NCBI GenBank assembly: GCA_021776135.1
Contig: JAJFGL010000019.1
Location: forward strand, 1 to 64,000
Reading direction: 5' to 3'
DNA: 64,000 bases
Origin: Kiloniellaceae bacterium
Lineage (GTDB): Bacteria > Pseudomonadota > Alphaproteobacteria > Kiloniellales > J153
Shown piece by piece: positions 1,650 through 59,118 of the stretch (position 1 is the first letter of the stretch; the number at the start of each line of letters is the position of its first letter). Below the pieces are notes generated by a model that was not told the DNA's origin, searched no databases, and was given only the letters and a program-made list of their open reading frames with translations. The position numbers and the translations under genes are program-made.

Positions 1650-2902
1650 GCGTTCAGGTTTCCAAGCTCGCCTCCGGCCTGACGATTTTGACCGACACCA
1701 TGGACACCGTGGAGACGGTGTCCCTTGGCGCCTGGATCGGGGTCGGCACCCGCCACGAAGCGGCCGAGGTCAACGGCATCGCCCACCTGCTGGAGCACAT
1801 GGCCTTCAAGGGCACGGCGCGGCGTAGCGCCTACGATATCGCCCAGGAGATCGAAGCCGTAGGCGGGCACCTGAACGCCTATACCAGCCGCGAAAACACC
1901 GCCTTCTATGCCAAGGTTCTGGCCGGGGACGCAGCCCTCGCGGTCGATATCGTGTCCGACATCCTGCTCAACCCCACCTTCGACGAGGACGAGTTGAAGC
2001 GCGAGCGCGCGGTGGTCTTGCAGGAAATCGGCCAGGCCAACGACACCCCCGACGATGTGGTCTTCGACCGTTTTCAGGAGGCCGCCTATCCCGATCAGGC
2101 GGTCGGGCGCCCGGTGCTGGGCACCGCCGAGATCGTGAGAGGCCTGGGCCGCGCGCCCCTGAGAGATTACATGTCGCGCCACTACGGCACCGGATCCATG
2201 GTCATGGCCGCCGCCGGAAAAATCGCCCACGAGGACTTTGTCGGCCTGGCCGGCGCGGCCTTTGAAAACCTGCCCCGCGAAGCCGGAAGCGCGGCGGAGC
2301 CGGCCATCTACCGGGGCGGCGAATACCGCGAGACCCGCGATCTGGAACAGGTCCATATCCTCCTGGGCTTCGATTCGGTCAGCTACCTCGACCCGGACTA
2401 CTACACCGCCTCGGTGTTCTCGACTCTCTTCGGCGGCGGCATGTCGTCGCGGCTGTTTCAAGAGGTGCGCGAGAAGCGCGGCCTGGTGTATTCGGTTTAT
2501 TCCTTCGTCGCCGCCTACCGCGACGGCGGCACCTTCGGCATCTATGCCGGCACCGGCGAGAACGAGGCGGCCGAACTGGTCCCCGTGATCTGCGGCGAGC
2601 TGGCCAAGGCCGCGGCCGGCGTGAGCGATGAGGAGGTCGTGCGGGCCAAGGCGCAGCTCAAGGCCTCGATTCTTATGAGCCTGGAAAGCTCGGGCGCACG
2701 CTGCGAACAACTGGCCCAGCAGTTCCTGACCCATGGCCGCCCCTTAAGCCTGGCCGAGGTCGTCGCCAAGATCGAAGCGGTCGATGCCCAGGCCGTGCGC
2801 GGCTTCGCCCAGCGGCTGGTCGCCGGCCCGCCGACCCTGGCCAGCCTGGGCCCGGTCGCTAAGCTGGAGCCCTTCGAACGGCTTGCCGCGCGCTTCGGAT
2901 AA
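1646..2902 (+). CDS. M16 family zinc metallopeptidase (processing-peptidase-like)
   Basis: 418 residues, the usual length of the single-subunit bacterial relatives of mitochondrial processing peptidase beta. The inverted zinc motif HxxEH is visible as HLLEH in NGIAHLLEHMAFKGT near residue 50, followed by the expected ENTAFYAKV segment and a downstream glutamate in ERAVVLQEI. The C-terminal half carries the conserved RLFQEVREKRGLVYSV motif of the second M16 domain. It probably degrades or trims peptides, but the substrate cannot be read from sequence. Its start overlaps thrC by four bases; thrC followed by an M16 gene is a common alphaproteobacterial arrangement. Confidence 0.93.
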   Translation: MSVQVSKLASGLTILTDTMDTVETVSLGAWIGVGTRHEAAEVNGIAHLLEHMAFKGTARRSAYDIAQEIEAVGGHLNAYTSRENTAFYAKVLAGDAALAVDIVSDILLNPTFDEDELKRERAVVLQEIGQANDTPDDVVFDRFQEAAYPDQAVGRPVLGTAEIVRGLGRAPLRDYMSRHYGTGSMVMAAAGKIAHEDFVGLAGAAFENLPREAGSAAEPAIYRGGEYRETRDLEQVHILLGFDSVSYLDPDYYTASVFSTLFGGGMSSRLFQEVREKRGLVYSVYSFVAAYRDGGTFGIYAGTGENEAAELVPVICGELAKAAAGVSDEEVVRAKAQLKASILMSLESSGARCEQLAQQFLTHGRPLSLAEVVAKIEAVDAQAVRGFAQRLVAGPPTLASLGPVAKLEPFERLAARFG

Positions 2903-2909
2903 TCTTTTC

Positions 2910-3497
2910 ATGATATTCCGGAACTGGCGCGGATCTTCGCCACAAGCTTCAAGCCTGGAGGGAACTCGCGTCACCCTGCGCCCGCCGGTCCAAAAAGATT
3001 GGCGCCCTTGGGCCGAGTTACGCGGCGAAAGCCGCGATTTCCTGACCCCCTGGGAGCCGACTTGGTCCGCCGACGCCCTGACCCGGCGGGCTTACCGCCG
3101 CCGTTTGCGGGCCCATAGGAGCGAGCTGCGCCTGCGCAGCGCCTACAGCTTCCTGATATTCCGCCGCGAGGACGGCGCGCTTATCGGCGGCGTCACCTTG
3201 TCCAATGTCCGGCGCGGCGTCGCCCAGGCGGCGAGCCTCGGCTACTGGTGCGGCGCCCGTTATAGTCGCCAGGGCTATATGACCGACGCCCTGGCCGCGA
3301 TACTGACCTTCGCGCTCAACGATCTAGGCCTGCACCGGGTCGAGGCCGCCTGCCTGCCCAACAACGCCGCCAGCAAGGCCCTGCTGATACGTTCCGGGTT
3401 CCGGGAGGAAGGTTACGCGCGGGACTACCTGCGTATCGACGGCCGCTGGCAAGACCACGTCCTCTTCGCCATCCTGCGCGCGGACCTGAAGAAATAG
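2910..3497 (+). CDS. GNAT acetyltransferase, RimJ/RimL-like
   Basis: A 195-residue protein of the GNAT fold resembling ribosomal-protein alanine N-acetyltransferases (RimJ type). Supporting segments are LRPPVQKDW near the start, the acetyl-CoA binding strand-loop around YWCGARYSRQGYMTDAL, and NNAASKALLIRSGFREEGYAR near the C-terminus. The frame is open further upstream inside the preceding gene, but ATG at 2910, just after the protease stop, gives the right family length. The last codons and the stop (GAAGAAATAG) are repeated about 360 bp downstream with an adjacent hairpin element, so the 3' end borders a duplicated segment. The substrate is unknown. Confidence 0.88.
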   Translation: MIFRNWRGSSPQASSLEGTRVTLRPPVQKDWRPWAELRGESRDFLTPWEPTWSADALTRRAYRRRLRAHRSELRLRSAYSFLIFRREDGALIGGVTLSNVRRGVAQAASLGYWCGARYSRQGYMTDALAAILTFALNDLGLHRVEAACLPNNAASKALLIRSGFREEGYARDYLRIDGRWQDHVLFAILRADLKK

Positions 3498-3510
3498 GAT
3501 TCTAAAAAAG

Positions 3511-3623
3511 GGTTTTCACCACGAAGGCGCGAAGACACGAAGGAGGCGCGAAGAACCGAAAATTATAAATCTACTTCGCGGCTTCTTCGCGCCTTAGCGT
3601 CTTCGTGCCTTCGTGGTGGAAAC
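3511..3623. repeat. Dispersed hairpin element, solo copy 1
   Basis: The left half reads GGTTTTCACCACGAAGGCGC and the right half ends CTTCGTGGTGGAAAC; the halves are imperfect inverted repeats around an AT-rich centre (about 3556-3573). The same arms recur at 3871, 31063 and 49851 and bound the GxxExxY gene at 34.9-35.4 kb. No coding potential. Confidence 0.85.
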
Positions 3624-3730
3624 TCTTAGCCGATCAGCGATTTGGGCCTTTGCCAAGGCTTCTTTCGTCACCCCCGCTTTCGCGCACTACTGCCCGGGAA
3701 TATTTCACGGTGGTAAATGTCCCCTCTCTC

Positions 3731-3835
3731 GTCATACGCGGACTTGATCCGCGTATCCATGGCCGTGGCAGGCGCGGATAGACGCAAGTCCGTACTGCGG
3801 CAAGCATGGATACGCGGATCAAGTCCGCGTATGAC
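3731..3835. repeat. Long perfect inverted repeat (GTCATACGCGG family)
   Basis: The 31-base arms at 3731-3761 and 3805-3835 are perfect reverse complements (GTCATACGCGGACTTGATCC... and its complement), separated by 43 bases. Each arm itself holds the shorter palindrome CGCGGACTTGATCCGCG. It lies between the two hairpin elements. A partial relative is at about 30192-30251. Confidence 0.9.
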
Positions 3836-3870
3836 GCCGGGGGTGTGAAGAAATAGGATTCTAAAAAAGA

Positions 3871-3968
3871 GTTTTCACCGCGAAGGCACGAAGACACTAA
3901 GAAGTGTATTTAAGAAGTGTATTTTTTCTTCGCGGCTTCTTCGCGCCTTCGCGTCTTCGTGGTGAAAT
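3871..3968. repeat. Dispersed hairpin element, solo copy 2
   Basis: Same arm pattern as copy 1 (GTTTTCACCGCGAAGGCACG on the left, GTCTTCGTGGTGAAA on the right). The centre contains a perfect 13-base tandem duplication of AAGAAGTGTATTT at 3899-3911 and 3912-3924. It ends just before the stop of the yqgE-like gene and could act as that gene's terminator. Confidence 0.85.
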
Positions 3969-3982
3969 TTCTTGACTGGGAT

Positions 3983-12423: not shown

Positions 12424-12479
12424 GGCGCGACGATCCGGTTCGGCCTTTTCGCGCCGCGCCGGCTAAGCTGAAAATCCCT

Positions 12480-12692
12480 CGCGGGAGAGATCGGGTACGC
12501 GCCTTGCCGCGGCCCCGGCGCCGAAGGAGCAACCGCCCCGGAAACTCTCAGGCACCATGGACCGCGCGGGACAGGCACCTCTGGAAAGCGGGCGCGGGGC
12601 GCGAAAGCGCGGCGCGGCCCACCGAAGGAGTAAGCCGGCGCTATCCAAACAAGCGCGCCGGTGAATCTCTCAGGTTCTCGGGACAGAGGGGG
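12480..12692 (+). promoter_or_regulatory. Tandem glycine riboswitch
   Basis: Two glycine aptamers lie head to tail upstream of the glycine cleavage genes. Aptamer 1 has GGGAGAGA (12483), CCGAAGGAGCAA (12521) and ACTCTCAGGCA (12544). Aptamer 2 has CACCTCTGG (12576), CACCGAAGGAGTAAGCC (12619) and ATCTCTCAGG followed by GGACAGAGG (to about 12690). These are the conserved cores of the gcvT RNA class, where glycine binding raises expression of glycine catabolism. Just downstream, CGGTGGC (12693-12699) can pair with GCCACCG (12718-12724). No U-run follows, which would fit control of translation rather than termination. Confidence 0.95.
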
Positions 12693-17250: not shown

Positions 17251-18573
17251 TTAAGCCTTATCGATTCCCTTGGCGCCGTCGAGCTTGGCGCCGGTCAAAT
17301 CGGTATCCTTTAGCACGGCGTCGGTTAGGTCCGCGCCGGTCAAGTCGGCGCCGCTGAGGTTGGCCCCCGACAAATCGGCGCGCGCCAAGCGCGCCTGCTG
17401 TAACAAAGCGCCACGCAAGTTCGCTTGGACCAGCTTGGCGCTTTGCAGATTGGTGGCGGTGCCGATTCCCTCCAAGGGGCCAAGATCGCAGCTATCGAGA
17501 TTCGCTTCGTTCAAACATGCGCGCTCAAGGTTCGCCCCGCGCATATCCGCTTGCCCGAGATCGCAGGAGCGAAAATCCGCGAACTCAAGGTTGGCCATGG
17601 CCAAGATCGAACCCGCCAAGGTGGCGCCGTTCATCCGGCACCGCCGCAGGTCGGCGATCGACAGGTTCACTTTTCCCAAGGTGCGGCCATTCAGATCGAA
17701 ATCGGCGAAGACGGCACGGGCGCCTTCCTTGCCGGAACTATCCAACCATAGCTTGTGTTCGTCCAGTAGCGCCTTGATCTCTTCGTCACTCTTACGGACC
17801 ATGGACGGCATGACGGCCATCTTCAGTTCGTCGAGCTCATAGGCCTCGGGGTCCAGGAACGCGCCGCGCAAATCGGCGCCGAGAAAATCGGCGCCCCGCA
17901 GATTGGCGCCGCTGAGTTGGGCCCCGGTCAAGGAGGCGCCGGCGAGTTTCGCGCCGCTCAAGTTAGCGCCGCGCATGTTGGTTCCAACGAAGGTTGTCTT
18001 GCGCAAATCGGCGCCGCAAAGAACCGCGTTGCTCAAGTTCGCATCGGTAAAGTCGGCTTGCAGCAATAATGAGCGATCGAGCTTAGCGTCGGAAAAATCG
18101 GCCCGCCGGGCGATCAAATTATCCATCTGCGACGGCGTTTCTTCGATCTCATGGGCCTTGAAGTCGCCGTGGGAATCGTAGCGCGCCAACATGGCCGGTC
18201 TAACGTCGGCCCTGAGGAGCTTGGCGGCGGTCAAATCCGCGCCGCGCATGGATACACCGCGCAAGTCGGCGGCGGTAAGATCCGTGTTGCACAGCATTGC
18301 CTGACGCATATCGGCGCAGAACAGGTTCGCATGGCAAAGCTTGGCGCTGTCGAGCCTCGCATTGGTTAACTTAACGCCGGTTAGATCGGCCGACGTAAGA
18401 TTGCACCCGGTCAGGACGACACCGGTCAAATCGGAGAATTGGATAACGGCGCGTTTTCCGCCGGGTTCTTTGTTCAGGAATTTACTGTGACTGAACAGTA
18501 TCGCCTTCAGCTCCATCAGGGAAACCTGGGCAAAGCTGCGTTCTTGCGTGTCCTTGGATGACATTTGCGGCAT
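17251..18573 (-). CDS. Pentapeptide-repeat protein with two modules
   Basis: 440 residues built mostly of A(D/N)LxX-type pentapeptide repeats, expected to fold into right-handed quadrilateral beta helices. Two modules are visible. Each begins with a similar non-repeat header: residues about 20-50 (ELKAILFSHSKFLNKEPGGK, then RAVIQFSDL) and 264-295 (EEIKALLDEHKLWLDSSGKE, then GARAVFADFDL). Repeats follow at about 50-240 and 295-435. An acidic-polar break lies near 130-150. No signal peptide. Some pentapeptide proteins mimic DNA and bind gyrase, but nothing here proves that role. Convergent with gcvP. Confidence 0.9.
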   Translation of the reverse strand: MPQMSSKDTQERSFAQVSLMELKAILFSHSKFLNKEPGGKRAVIQFSDLTGVVLTGCNLTSADLTGVKLTNARLDSAKLCHANLFCADMRQAMLCNTDLTAADLRGVSMRGADLTAAKLLRADVRPAMLARYDSHGDFKAHEIEETPSQMDNLIARRADFSDAKLDRSLLLQADFTDANLSNAVLCGADLRKTTFVGTNMRGANLSGAKLAGASLTGAQLSGANLRGADFLGADLRGAFLDPEAYELDELKMAVMPSMVRKSDEEIKALLDEHKLWLDSSGKEGARAVFADFDLNGRTLGKVNLSIADLRRCRMNGATLAGSILAMANLEFADFRSCDLGQADMRGANLERACLNEANLDSCDLGPLEGIGTATNLQSAKLVQANLRGALLQQARLARADLSGANLSGADLTGADLTDAVLKDTDLTGAKLDGAKGIDKA

Positions 18574-30068: not shown

Positions 30069-30191
30069 ATCCGCCCACCGCAAGTCCTTGTTCCGACCGT
30101 GACTACATAGCCCGGCGGACACAACTTTCCCAGGCGGCGGGGCAATCACATTACCGTTAGGGCTTGTAGGGCTTGAGCGCGGCTATTCGAC

Positions 30192-30251
30192 AGTCCGTGC
30201 CGCGGCAACCATGGCGACGCGGATCGAGTCCGCGTATGACTAGAGAGGGGA
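30192..30251. repeat. Partial GTCATACGCGG-family repeat
   Basis: The sequence CAGTCCGTGCCGCGGCAACC and then GCGGATCGAGTCCGCGTATGAC closely follows the right side of the long inverted repeat at 3731-3835. The trailing AGAGAGGGGAC matches the reverse complement of the bases just left of that repeat (3716-3728), so the element is longer than its arms. One arm is lost. Confidence 0.75.
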
Positions 30252-30300
30252 CTCTTGCCCCCGCCAATTTAAACCGGACACATCCGCGGGGAACTAGGCA

Positions 30301-31023: not shown

Positions 31024-31062
31024 ATCTGAAGATGTTAATTAGGGACAGTATAAAAATAAACG

Positions 31063-31135
31063 GGTTTACCACGAAGGCGCGAAGGCACCAAGAAGAAGCC
31101 TCTTTTTGGTTCTTCGTGTCTTGGCGGTGAAAAAC
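31063..31135. repeat. Dispersed hairpin element, solo copy 3
   Basis: A shorter copy: GGTTTACCACGAAGGCGCG on the left and CTTCGTGTCTTGGCGGTGAA on the right, with a compact centre. It lies immediately downstream of the truncated TRAP permease gene. Confidence 0.82.
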
Positions 31136-31151
31136 TTCTGCTTCCCCCGTC

Positions 31152-34810: not shown

Positions 34811-34892
34811 ACGGGTGGCGAGGCAAGTTCCTTCCAGCCCCCCACATCGTCATGCGTGGGATTGAATTCCGTACCTGGCTTAGCTTTCTTTT

Positions 34893-34934
34893 TTTTACCG
34901 CAAAGACGCGAAGGCTCTAAGGAACGCGAAGAAG
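34893..34934. repeat. Left arm of GxxExxY-bearing element
   Basis: Reads TTTTACCGCAAAGACGCGAA... and ends CGCGAAGAAG. It matches, imperfectly, the left half of the solo hairpin elements and the reverse complement of the arm at 35346-35386. Confidence 0.8.
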
Positions 34935-34948
34935 TTAAGAGACGCCAG

Positions 34949-35335
34949 TCACCGGATAAGGCGTTTAATCCCATCCTTTATCAGGGGAACGTTGAAATTG
35001 ATCAAGAATCCAAGTTCCTTATTGGCCAATTTCAGATACGTGAGAAGCTGAGCATCATAAACCGGCAACAACTTGGCGACCGCCTTGAGTTCCAGAACAA
35101 TCCGGTCTTGGACCAAAAGGTCCAAGCGTAATCCAGATTCCAGCCGCATGCCTCCATAGACGATCGGTACAGCTACCTGTTGTTGAACCGAGATTTTACG
35201 GCTTTCGAACTCCCGGACCATGCAGGCTTGGTAGACCGATTCGAGCAGTCCCGGACCAAGCGTCGTATGCACCTTGAATGCGGAATCGACAATGCTCGCG
35301 GCGAGTTGCTCTATCTCATCCGATAGCCGTTTCAT
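34949..35335 (-). CDS. GxxExxY family protein
   Basis: A 128-residue protein of the GxxExxY family, function unknown. The name-giving motif is in LGPGLLESVYQACM near residue 28. Other conserved parts are the YGGMRLESGLRLDLLVQD segment, the nuclease-like core ...LELKAV, and QLLTYLKLANKELGFLINF. The D...ExK pattern recalls PD-(D/E)xK nucleases, but activity is not shown. Base composition is visibly lower in GC than the genes around it. It is bounded on both sides by the arms of the dispersed hairpin element, as if carried by it. Confidence 0.9.
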   Translation of the reverse strand: MKRLSDEIEQLAASIVDSAFKVHTTLGPGLLESVYQACMVREFESRKISVQQQVAVPIVYGGMRLESGLRLDLLVQDRIVLELKAVAKLLPVYDAQLLTYLKLANKELGFLINFNVPLIKDGIKRLIR

Positions 35336-35345
35336 TTAGGTATCC

Positions 35346-35386
35346 TTCGCGCCTTCTTCGCGTCTTAGCGCCTTCGCGGTGAAAAC
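35346..35386. repeat. Right arm of GxxExxY-bearing element
   Basis: TTCGCGCCTTCTTCGCGTCT...GCGGTGAAAAC is the inverted partner of 34893-34934 and matches the right half of solo copies 1 and 2 closely. It ends 13 bases before the dhaK stop codon. Confidence 0.82.
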
Positions 35387-35399
35387 TTTTCCTAGCCCC

Positions 35400-49701: not shown

Positions 49702-50011
49702 CGCGGTTCAAACTTGAAGAGAATCGCTATACTCAGTCGTCACCCTTGGGCTTGGCCCGAGGGTCCAGGGACACAGCCGCATTCCGGCCCCGGTTGCATG
49801 AATTCGGGAAGAGACGGGAGCGGCCATTCACTTGGTGCGGCGGCAAGAATATTTTTCAGCACGAAGACACAAAAACACTATGAAGCGAATCATGGCCTTG
49901 GACCGTGAAGATAAATAACATTATTTTACTTCGCGGCTTCTTAGTGTCTTTGTGTCTTCGTGGTAAATCTCTTTCTAAGGTTCAATCAATCCTGAGGCGC
50001 TGAAAAAACCC
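49702..50011. other. Repeat-filled spacer
   Basis: No gene. It contains half of the palindrome family (about 49737-49770, the reverse complement of a stretch near 6969-7001) and the hairpin element copy 4. Its last 30 bases lead into the dehydrogenase gene. Confidence 0.7.
49851..49967. repeat. Dispersed hairpin element, solo copy 4
   Basis: Left TTTTTCAGCACGAAGACACA and right CTTTGTGTCTTCGTGGTAAA. This is the longest and most AT-rich solo copy; its centre (about 49885-49925) is not shared with the others. Confidence 0.82.
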
Positions 50012-57504: not shown

Positions 57505-59118
57505 ATGAGTCCCCACAGCAAACCGGCGGCGATCATGTTGCAGGGCACGGGCTCCGACGTCGGTAAGTCGCTGCTGGCCGCGGGCCTGGCGCGGGCTTTT
57601 ACCCGGCGCGGTCTCAAGGTGCGGCCCTTCAAGCCGCAGAACATGTCGAACAATGCCGCGGTCACGGCCGATGGCGGGGAAATCGGCCGCGCGCAAGCCT
57701 TGCAGGCGCGCGCCTGCGGTATCGCACCCTCCGTCCACATGAACCCGGTCCTGCTGAAACCGCAAACCGATGTCGGCGCCCAGGTCGTGGTTCAAGGTCA
57801 AGTATGGGGCAACGCCAGTGCCCGGGATTACGGCGCCCTCAAGGCCGAGTTGATGCCCAAGGTACTGGAAAGTTTCGCGCGGCTTTCCCAAGACGCCGAT
57901 CTGGTTGTGGTCGAGGGCGCGGGCAGCCCGGCCGAGGTTAACCTGCGCGACGGCGATATCGCCAACATGGGTTTCGCCGAGGCCGCCGACCTGCCGGTGG
58001 TTCTGATCGGCGACATCGCGCGCGGCGGCGTGATAGCCAGCATCCTTGGCACCTGGCACCTGTTACCACCCAGCGAACGGGCGCGCATCGAGGGTGTGAT
58101 CGTCAATAAGTTTCGCGGCGATGTCTCGCTGTTCGACGGCGGCTTGGCGGTCATCGCGCGCGAGACCGGCCTGGGGTGCTTCGGCGTCGTGCCCCACTTC
58201 ACAGAAGCCCGCCGCCTGCCCGCCGAGGATGCGCTCGCGGTGGAAAGCTATCCCGGCCCGGACAGCCCCCCCACCCTAACCCTCCCCCTCCAGGGGGGAG
58301 GGAATAGGGAGAGCGCGTCTGCCCTGACTTCCCCCTCCCCCCTGGAGGGGGAGGGCCGGGGTGGGGGGGATCTTGCCGCCAGGTCTCATCCAGACCCCCT
58401 CATCCGCATCGCCGTGCCGGCGATATCGCGGATTTCTAATTTCGACGATCTGGATCCCTTGATGGCGGAGCCCGATGTCGCCGTGACCTTCGTGCACGCG
58501 GGGGAGGCTATTCCCGGCGATTGCGATCTGGTGATCCTGCCCGGTTCCAAGGCCACCCTCGCCGACCTCGCCTACTTACGCGCCCAGGGCTGGGACATCG
58601 ACATCGCCGCCCACTTGCGCCGGGGCGGCCAAGTGCTGGGCCTCTGCGGAGGCTATCAGATGCTTGGGTCCATCGTGCGCGACCCCCAGGGTATCGAGGG
58701 CGCGGCGGGCGAGGCGGACGGCTTAGGGCACCTGGACATGGAAACCGTTTTAAGCGCCGGCAAAACCTTGCATGAAATCGCCGGGACCGAACTGGCGAGC
58801 GGCGCCGCCGTACGCGGATACCTCATGCACATAGGACACAGCGCCGGGCCCGCCTGCGCCCGGCCCATGCTAAGGCTGGGCGGTAAAGATAACGGCGCGG
58901 TCTCCCCGGACGGGCGGGTCATGGGCTGTTACCTTCACGGCCTTTTCGCCGCCGACGAATTCCGCCACGCTTTTCTGGCGCGCCTGAAGAAACGCCCGGC
59001 CAGCGGCCTGGCCTATGACAGCGAGATCGAGGCCATCCTCGACCGCCTGGCCGAGCACCTGGAAACCCACCTGGATTTGGACGCCCTGCTCAGGGCCGCC
59101 GAGCCTCGTAAAAGCTAA
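57505..59118 (+). CDS. cobQ: Cobyric acid synthase, with repeat-derived insert
   Basis: A 537-residue amidotransferase that amidates adenosylcobyrinate a,c-diamide at four carboxylates. The N-terminal ATP domain has [20 protein letters not shown]; the C-terminal glutaminase domain has the cysteine in [11 protein letters not shown]. The family is usually about 480-500 residues. The surplus is residues about 255-289, encoded by a palindromic repeat between the two domains (58266-58369), read in frame as a proline- and glycine-rich linker. The frame remains open, so the enzyme is probably still active. Confidence 0.93.
58266..58369. repeat. Palindromic element inserted in the cobQ coding sequence
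   Basis: The 37-base arms 58266-58302 and 58333-58369 are nearly perfect inverted repeats of the type CCCTCCCCCTCCAGGGGG. The segment is translated in frame and no stop arises. Confidence 0.9.

Follow-up and report, generated by a model that had tools for sequence, protein, structure and literature searches.

The window analysed here is a stretch of 64,000 nucleotides from a Kiloniellaceae bacterium (contig JAJFGL010000019.1 of assembly GCA_021776135.1, positions 1 to 64,000 of the forward strand). On its reverse strand, at 34949–35335, lies a small gene encoding a protein of 128 amino acids, which profile searches assigned to the GxxExxY family (NCBIfam TIGR04256; E 1.8e-41, 141.2 bits against a cut-off of 35) and to Pfam PF13366, PDDEXK_3 (E 7.6e-40, 136.4 bits against a cut-off of 22). 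The gene is enclosed by two arms. The left arm (34893–34934, + strand) is built of tandem octamers, CRCNAAGR, which face inward, and the right arm (35346–35386, − strand) is inverted with respect to the left. Both arms had been placed at these positions by the first-pass annotation, and a unit scan of the window found octamer units inside each of them, at 34899–34913 (+) and 35356–35378 (−), facing one another. The whole element, arms plus gene, runs from 34891 to 35390, these being the limits of its DNA identity with copies that occupy another site in congeners. GxxExxY is the sole gene between the arms, and NCBIfam and Pfam profile searches matched it to no known transposase family. Its GC content, which the same annotation had described as lower than that of its neighbours, is indeed 0.50, compared with 0.63 and 0.65 for the adjacent genes and 0.643 for the window.

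In an alignment of 85 proteins (69 of the 80 loci described below, the window protein and 15 others), G27, E32, Y35, D72, E82, Q96, G109, N113, F114, and R125 were invariant, and K84 was nearly so. We take D72, E82, and K84 to be the catalytic residues of PD-(D/E)XK nucleases. The structure model of the window protein (pLDDT 95.9, pTM 0.88) gave no match in the PDB at E ≤0.001 with Foldseek, and the best sequence match in the PDB had an E-value of 0.74. VIA-align retrieved restriction-endonuclease-like folds with middling scores, headed by SSO0001 (4ic1; Z 9.4), with archaeal Hjc (1gef) at Z 7.2; the likeness to these two proteins is one of fold only, and no function follows from it. By its modelled fold and its active-site residues, the window protein belongs to the PD-(D/E)XK nuclease superfamily, with a putative nuclease activity. 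Of 11 pairs compared, one was saturated; in the other 10, dN/dS lay between 0.053 and 0.116, which shows purifying selection on the protein.

The window also contains four gene-less hairpins with the arms of the gene element, as had been claimed at first pass. Two of them, at 3507–3630 and 3866–3976, have the same arms and fold as RNA at −78.5 and −48.5 kcal/mol, respectively. The third, at 31058–31137, is a short form (−39.4 kcal/mol), whilst the fourth, at 49850–49975 (−47.7 kcal/mol), has a degenerate left arm, a clear right arm, and a long, less regular centre. A search of the whole window with Rfam at gathering scores returned nothing at the elements. It did identify two adjacent glycine riboswitch aptamers at 12472–12692 (RF00504, 60.1 and 39.7 bits). 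Another dispersed palindrome family lies beside the solo hairpins (3691–3762, 3730–3836, and 30177–30280); its 32-nt arms are 100% complementary at 3730–3761/3805–3836, and similar text occurs within the centre of a solo hairpin elsewhere in the genome (L023). At 58266–58369 there is a C-rich inverted repeat with 37-nt arms that are 92% complementary, relatives of which occur near the element of a congener (L037). The stretch 17317–18286 is coding, with 15-bp periodic repeats, and our guess is that it encodes a pentapeptide-repeat protein.

When the 3.96-Mb genome to which the window belongs was searched with the arm pattern, allowing up to three mismatches, there were 139 matches (64 + 75) compared with 23 (14 + 9) for a reversed-pattern control, so the arm repeats of the window are not due to chance. 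This genome has a second GxxExxY gene on contig 3 (L191; G000 contig 3, 1313–1954), in whose match the search counted one stop. Its arms are of a different flavour, CACAGAGR, which is repeated in solo hairpins of that same flavour, and its clade, to which L033 and L120 also belong, has the arm letters CAGAG in common. For 18 elements in the genome, the context was judged from the calls of a rough gene finder. No element overlapped a likely open reading frame; nine lay in gaps between convergent genes, seven between tandem genes, and one between divergent genes, with one unresolved (two of the 18 share a gap). Such intergenic siting fits a hairpin that does little harm and that could stop transcription from both sides.

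It had been proposed at first pass that the solo hairpins are deletion derivatives of the gene-bearing unit. For a solo hairpin of the genome that lies outside the window, on contig 50 (L025), the derivation can be read by comparison with the orthologous sites of two congeners, both of which carry the gene (L200 in G008 and L202 in G007). Positions 1–1619 of L200 align with 16–1614 of L025 at 81.6% identity, and 1949–3231 with 1609–2889 at 87%. The solo hairpin retains both arms and ~60 bp of the 3′ end of the gene beside the left arm, and the remainder of the gene is absent. The copy in G008 has an open frame, and that in G007 is full length, with one in-frame stop counted by the search. In G008, GAACCC occurs at both ends of the stretch that is absent from the solo hairpin, which suggests that the gene was lost by slippage or microhomology deletion. 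The remnant is 82%–83% identical to each of three gene copies, and hence ~17% from the window copy, which is therefore an old paralog, not the product of a recent jump.

A similar origin is likely for the CACAGAGR solo that adjoins the contig-3 gene. It keeps the left end of that copy and is 98% identical to it over 65 bp, which span the left arm with a short piece of flank and, on the inner side, ~28 bp extending to the last codons of the gene. In the four window solos, alignment revealed no recognizable gene remnant, and for these we infer the same origin. Insertion sequences have terminal inverted repeats around one gene, and MITEs are internal-deletion derivatives that keep the ends. The contig-50 solo has all three properties of such a derivative, in that its ends are kept, its gene is gone, and it derives from a full copy; the window solos have the first two. 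A hairpin can thus arise by internal deletion of the gene from a full element.

The proposal that arms and gene form a mobile unit is supported, as both recur together in various genera and phyla at sites that are unrelated. An alignment of the window element with the L037 copy of a congener (G008) extends over 34892–35384 at 81.4% DNA identity, and one with the L035 copy of another (G007) over 34891–35390 at 79.8%; in neither case do the flanks align. Between different phyla, the L075 and L102 copies are 86.7% identical over 460 bp, and L093 matches L073, L059, and L062 at 84.7%, 81.4%, and 79.7%, respectively, over ~460 bp, again with unrelated flanks. Identity in these cross-phylum pairs stops within the arms or close outside them. 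The hosts are mostly metagenome-assembled genomes, in which misbinning could misname a host; it could not create different flanks. These pairs, which are full-length matches, were taken from a screen that required ≥72% identity, sufficient sequence on either side, and flanks without homology. It yielded 278 pairs, of which many matched over a short part only. Outside the arms of L073, L075, L102, and L062, a half-conserved inverted stretch resembling GTAACTATTCA was noticed by eye, and the true ends of this group may lie 10–15 bp further out.

Two properties of an insertion sequence are thus present, namely terminal inverted repeats around a gene and occurrence of the unit at unrelated sites. 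Inspection by eye of the flanks of ten copies disclosed no target duplication, and no clean empty site was found. One candidate for such a site was the neighbouring gene that we read as dhaK-like: the element is absent beside it in G006, G007, and G008, but there the other neighbour differs, and the candidate was rejected. The Flavobacterium pair list contains no near-identical pair at unrelated sites that would mark a recent jump. With the window protein as single query (E 1e-5), matches were found in 8 of 72,556 plasmid records and in none of 50,697 phages.

To gauge how general the link between arms and gene is, we used a strict test: each side of the gene had to carry, in the adjacent 250 bp, at least two inward-facing units of C[AG]CN[AG]AG at a spacing of 8–10 bp. 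It was applied to 80 loci from named genomes of many phyla, which had been picked by similarity to the window protein, a choice that favours the window's arm design. Among the 77 with enough flank, 55 passed on both sides, 17 on one side, and 5 on neither, whilst outward-pointing unit pairs occurred at three. None of 161 neighbouring open reading frames of at least 150 amino acids passed on both sides, and these controls gave eight single-side matches. The 80 loci include orthologs (16 represent one Flavobacterium site, and L040/L045, L047/L068, and L055/L106/L115 are orthologous), and collapsing the known orthologous sites by hand left 42 of 58 passing. All six loci from the bacterium's own family passed, among them two orthologs and one locus that is the same as L037 in the set of 80. 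In Alphaproteobacteria, 10 of 20 loci passed on both sides, 4 on one, and 6 on neither (5 of 25 loci were truncated and left out). The corresponding figures for Flavobacterium are 20, 23, and 21 of 64 (5 of 69 were truncated and left out), the low pass rate there being due to the use of other arm designs.

When any inverted arm with an alignment score of at least 30 was accepted, 97 of 135 loci had one, compared with 3 of 258 control open reading frames; counting each site once by its median gave 66 of 92 sites. Mispaired flanks proved to be an unfair null, because arms resemble one another even between phyla (a score of at least 40 was reached by 27 of 425 mispairs). Whether every GxxExxY gene is bounded by arms, which the first-pass annotation had made a check on its proposal, can thus be answered: most of those examined are, but not all. 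That annotation would also have counted against the unit a gene lacking arms at a locus where relatives have them, and one such case is present in part, since L115 lacks two clear arms whilst the orthologous L055 and L106 have them. Genes for four-helix-bundle proteins (TIGR02436) were considered as another gene within octamer arms and rejected, as 0 of 17 loci in the class had them (19 were found, and two with short flanks were left out).

The other arm designs of Flavobacterium include copies with spacings of 9/12 bp and 10/11 bp and copies of the CACAGATTA and GCAGAT types. Arm labels were fixed ahead of tree building. Over all 163 rows, of which 141 were labelled, the protein tree required 10 changes of arm design, compared with a mean of 53 after shuffling, but here the loci are largely orthologous; the 60 Flavobacterium loci, for example, fall into 19 flank clusters. 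With one row per site, the 79 labelled sites required 11 changes, compared with a shuffled mean of 18.6, and none of 200 shuffles was as low. The 14 Flavobacterium sites required 5 changes versus 8.6 when shuffled, again with none of 200 as low. Taken alone at site level, the B9 arm class was not clustered (66 of 500 shuffles were as low), nor was the D class, which has two sites only. Arm design therefore appears to follow protein clade overall, and to do so more weakly when each site is counted once. Joint descent of gene and arms explains this clustering as well as recognition does. Within a single genome that has four GxxExxY genes, different GxxExxY clades are enclosed by different arm designs.

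The clade-specific designs within that one genome could also be read by a host factor, as they would be if the arms were the ends of an element moved by another transposase, such as a REP transposase, with GxxExxY as a cargo for defence or repair. The GxxExxY protein has no known activity, and its conserved active site is silent on what is cut. Nevertheless, the unit holds no other gene, and its presence in many phyla would call for a partner enzyme in each of them, and we regard a cargo role of this kind as distinctly unlikely. The sequence does not decide between cargo and actor, the two roles left open at first pass, but the active site, purifying selection, and clade-linked arms make us lean toward the latter.

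For a comparison of hairpins and genes across genomes we used a strict hairpin pattern of two units, 8–38 bp, and two inverted units, in which nested matches count twice. It replaced an arm pattern with one mismatch allowed, which lacked stringency when tried on the class, its counts in most genomes being close to those of the control. The strict pattern was present in 34 of 50 genomes with GxxExxY loci (50 of the 80 loci given), reaching 163 in the genome of L044, with no control matches, and was absent from the other 16. In the class Alphaproteobacteria, 6 of 289 genomes had the hairpin pattern and 18 had the gene, which was present in two of the six. The gene is thus absent from four of the six hairpin-bearing genomes, which in part bears out the possibility, considered adverse to the unit at first pass, that arms occur in related genomes with no relation to the gene. 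In Flavobacterium, the gene was found in 121 of 150 genomes, being present in 32 of the 33 that have the hairpin and in 89 of the 117 others (Fisher P 0.005, ignoring relatedness and genome size).

One Flavobacterium site, flanked by what we take to be asnS and rpoN, was followed across these genomes. At least nine of the 150 match a gene-bearing query over its full length. Of 47 genomes examined that lack the gene there, two have longer inserts at the site, and 41 of the other 45 have an inverted repeat that scores above all 50 letter shuffles. The gene-less hairpins at the site (L287–L333) often consist of tandem 7–8-mers with several other motifs. Rather than being a simple empty site, the locus thus tends to hold some kind of hairpin. 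In one genome (L327, 306–957; G403) it has two small open reading frames that, on our reading, look like a toxin–antitoxin pair of the HigB/HigA type.

Hairpins of other kinds at this site in gene-less species, together with hairpins in four alphaproteobacterial genomes that lack the gene and the excess of solos in the bacterium's own genome (32 solo or partial copies listed versus 2 GxxExxY genes), are what would be expected of a homing-type invasion, in which a GxxExxY nuclease gene copies itself into the centre of hairpins that existed earlier as a repeat in their own right, using the arms as repair homology. We consider such an invasion unlikely, given that the sole direction of change that can be read is from gene to hairpin, that arm design tracks protein clade, and that the pairs spanning phyla share arms and gene together whilst their flanks differ.

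In the left arm of the gene-bearing Flavobacterium site, 16 orthologs had minor letters in 2 of 160 cells at motif positions, compared with 35 of 128 at the free R/N positions (anchor columns were excluded from the motif cells, and the ortholog rows are related, so that a P value is not exact). The difference is large, and the arm motif is under constraint at this old Flavobacterium site. Constraint on the arms, the stable orthologous residence of the gene in Flavobacterium, and the location of elements outside genes (0 of 18 overlapping a likely open reading frame) would all suit an ordinary, mostly vertically inherited gene flanked by inverted repeats that act as terminators or as structures protecting its mRNA. 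For single sites, this could hold if the arms were needed only for expression. As an account of the family, it is in our view very improbable, since across phyla the unit occupies sites that are unrelated, identity does not extend beyond it, and many gene-less copies have the same arms.

The unit, then, recurs across phyla with identity that ends at or near its arms, has yielded one deletion derivative, and is under constraint in its protein and, at one site, in its arm motif. The explanation that we favour, and judge to be reasonably likely, is a single-gene mobile element of ~0.45–0.5 kb, whose nuclease recognises the element's own arms and promotes its copying or transfer. The two inverted tandem-octamer arms would be the ends of the element and could pair into a hairpin. 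The DNA form in which the nuclease would recognise its own design of arm would be a hairpin or a cruciform, and the enzyme would promote copying or transfer of whatever lies between such arms. Hairpins without the gene could then be spread in trans as well, as has been proposed for REPs and the REP transposase. Loss of the gene by internal deletion can leave the arms behind as a hairpin, and solo hairpins would be tolerated, lying 3′ of genes where they can serve as two-way terminators. The nuclease is probably the actor on its own hairpin ends; we infer that it moves the unit because it is the sole gene, is under selection, has a conserved active site, and is accompanied by arms whose design varies with its clade. 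Three observations speak against an active transposon: no target duplication was recognised, recent copies were not found, and the element resides stably in Flavobacterium.

Like insertion sequences and MITEs, the GxxExxY unit has inverted repeats around a single gene and deletion derivatives that keep the ends. Unlike insertion sequences, it has no known transposase family and no recognised target duplication, and it measures <0.5 kb. A closer likeness in organization is offered by the REPtron, in which, according to excerpts of PMC8266576, the TnpA_REP protein (RAYT) is an HuH enzyme that has co-evolved with its palindrome. In both systems, one small gene is linked with a cognate palindrome of which solitary copies are dispersed as well, and in the GxxExxY unit arm design goes with protein clade. 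In contrast, GxxExxY is a PD-(D/E)XK protein, not an HuH enzyme, and its arms are tandem 8–12-mers that enclose the gene. Because its enzyme differs, the GxxExxY unit falls outside the REP transposase system. The GTAG- and CGTC-tagged REPs are dispersed intergenic palindromes that also occur in Planctomycetes and Verrucomicrobia (excerpts of PMC3733652). They are defined by their tags, and AAAG is absent from the text of that paper, whereas the arms here are CRCNAAGR octamers.

Rpn proteins (YhgA-like, PF04754) are likewise of the PD-(D/E)XK type; they were once named transposases and have been linked to RecA-independent recombination, and little or no sequence specificity has been reported for RpnA (abstract of PMC5350276). 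They are of another family than GxxExxY, and that abstract does not mention arms. Chrysochromulina parva virus BQ1, an algal virus, also has a GxxExxY gene listed in its genome (excerpt of PMC12085832). No description of the arm–gene link was found in open-licence full text. Excerpts of the open-licence papers that print the name GxxExxY contain nothing on its function or arms, the combination of PDDEXK, transposase, inverted repeats, and insertion sequence gave no match in such text, and arm-like strings gave an unrelated match only.

We tentatively suggest, with somewhat less than even confidence, that the GxxExxY unit represents a separate class of autonomous element. Its sole protein would be a PD-(D/E)XK nuclease of ~125 amino acids with its own tandem-octamer hairpin ends, the unit of <0.5 kb would pass between phyla, and gene-less hairpins would be mobilised in trans, making it a counterpart of the REP transposase built on an unrelated fold. 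Gene and arms may together make up a selfish DNA element of very small size that has an enzyme of an unusual type. GxxExxY genes are widespread, and linking the protein to a DNA end that is specific and evolves opens its function to direct testing. If the protein binds its own arm design, the units would rank among the smallest autonomous mobile elements. They would then stand beside REP systems as a counterpart based on a nuclease, and would account for many of the hairpins that lie between genes in several phyla.
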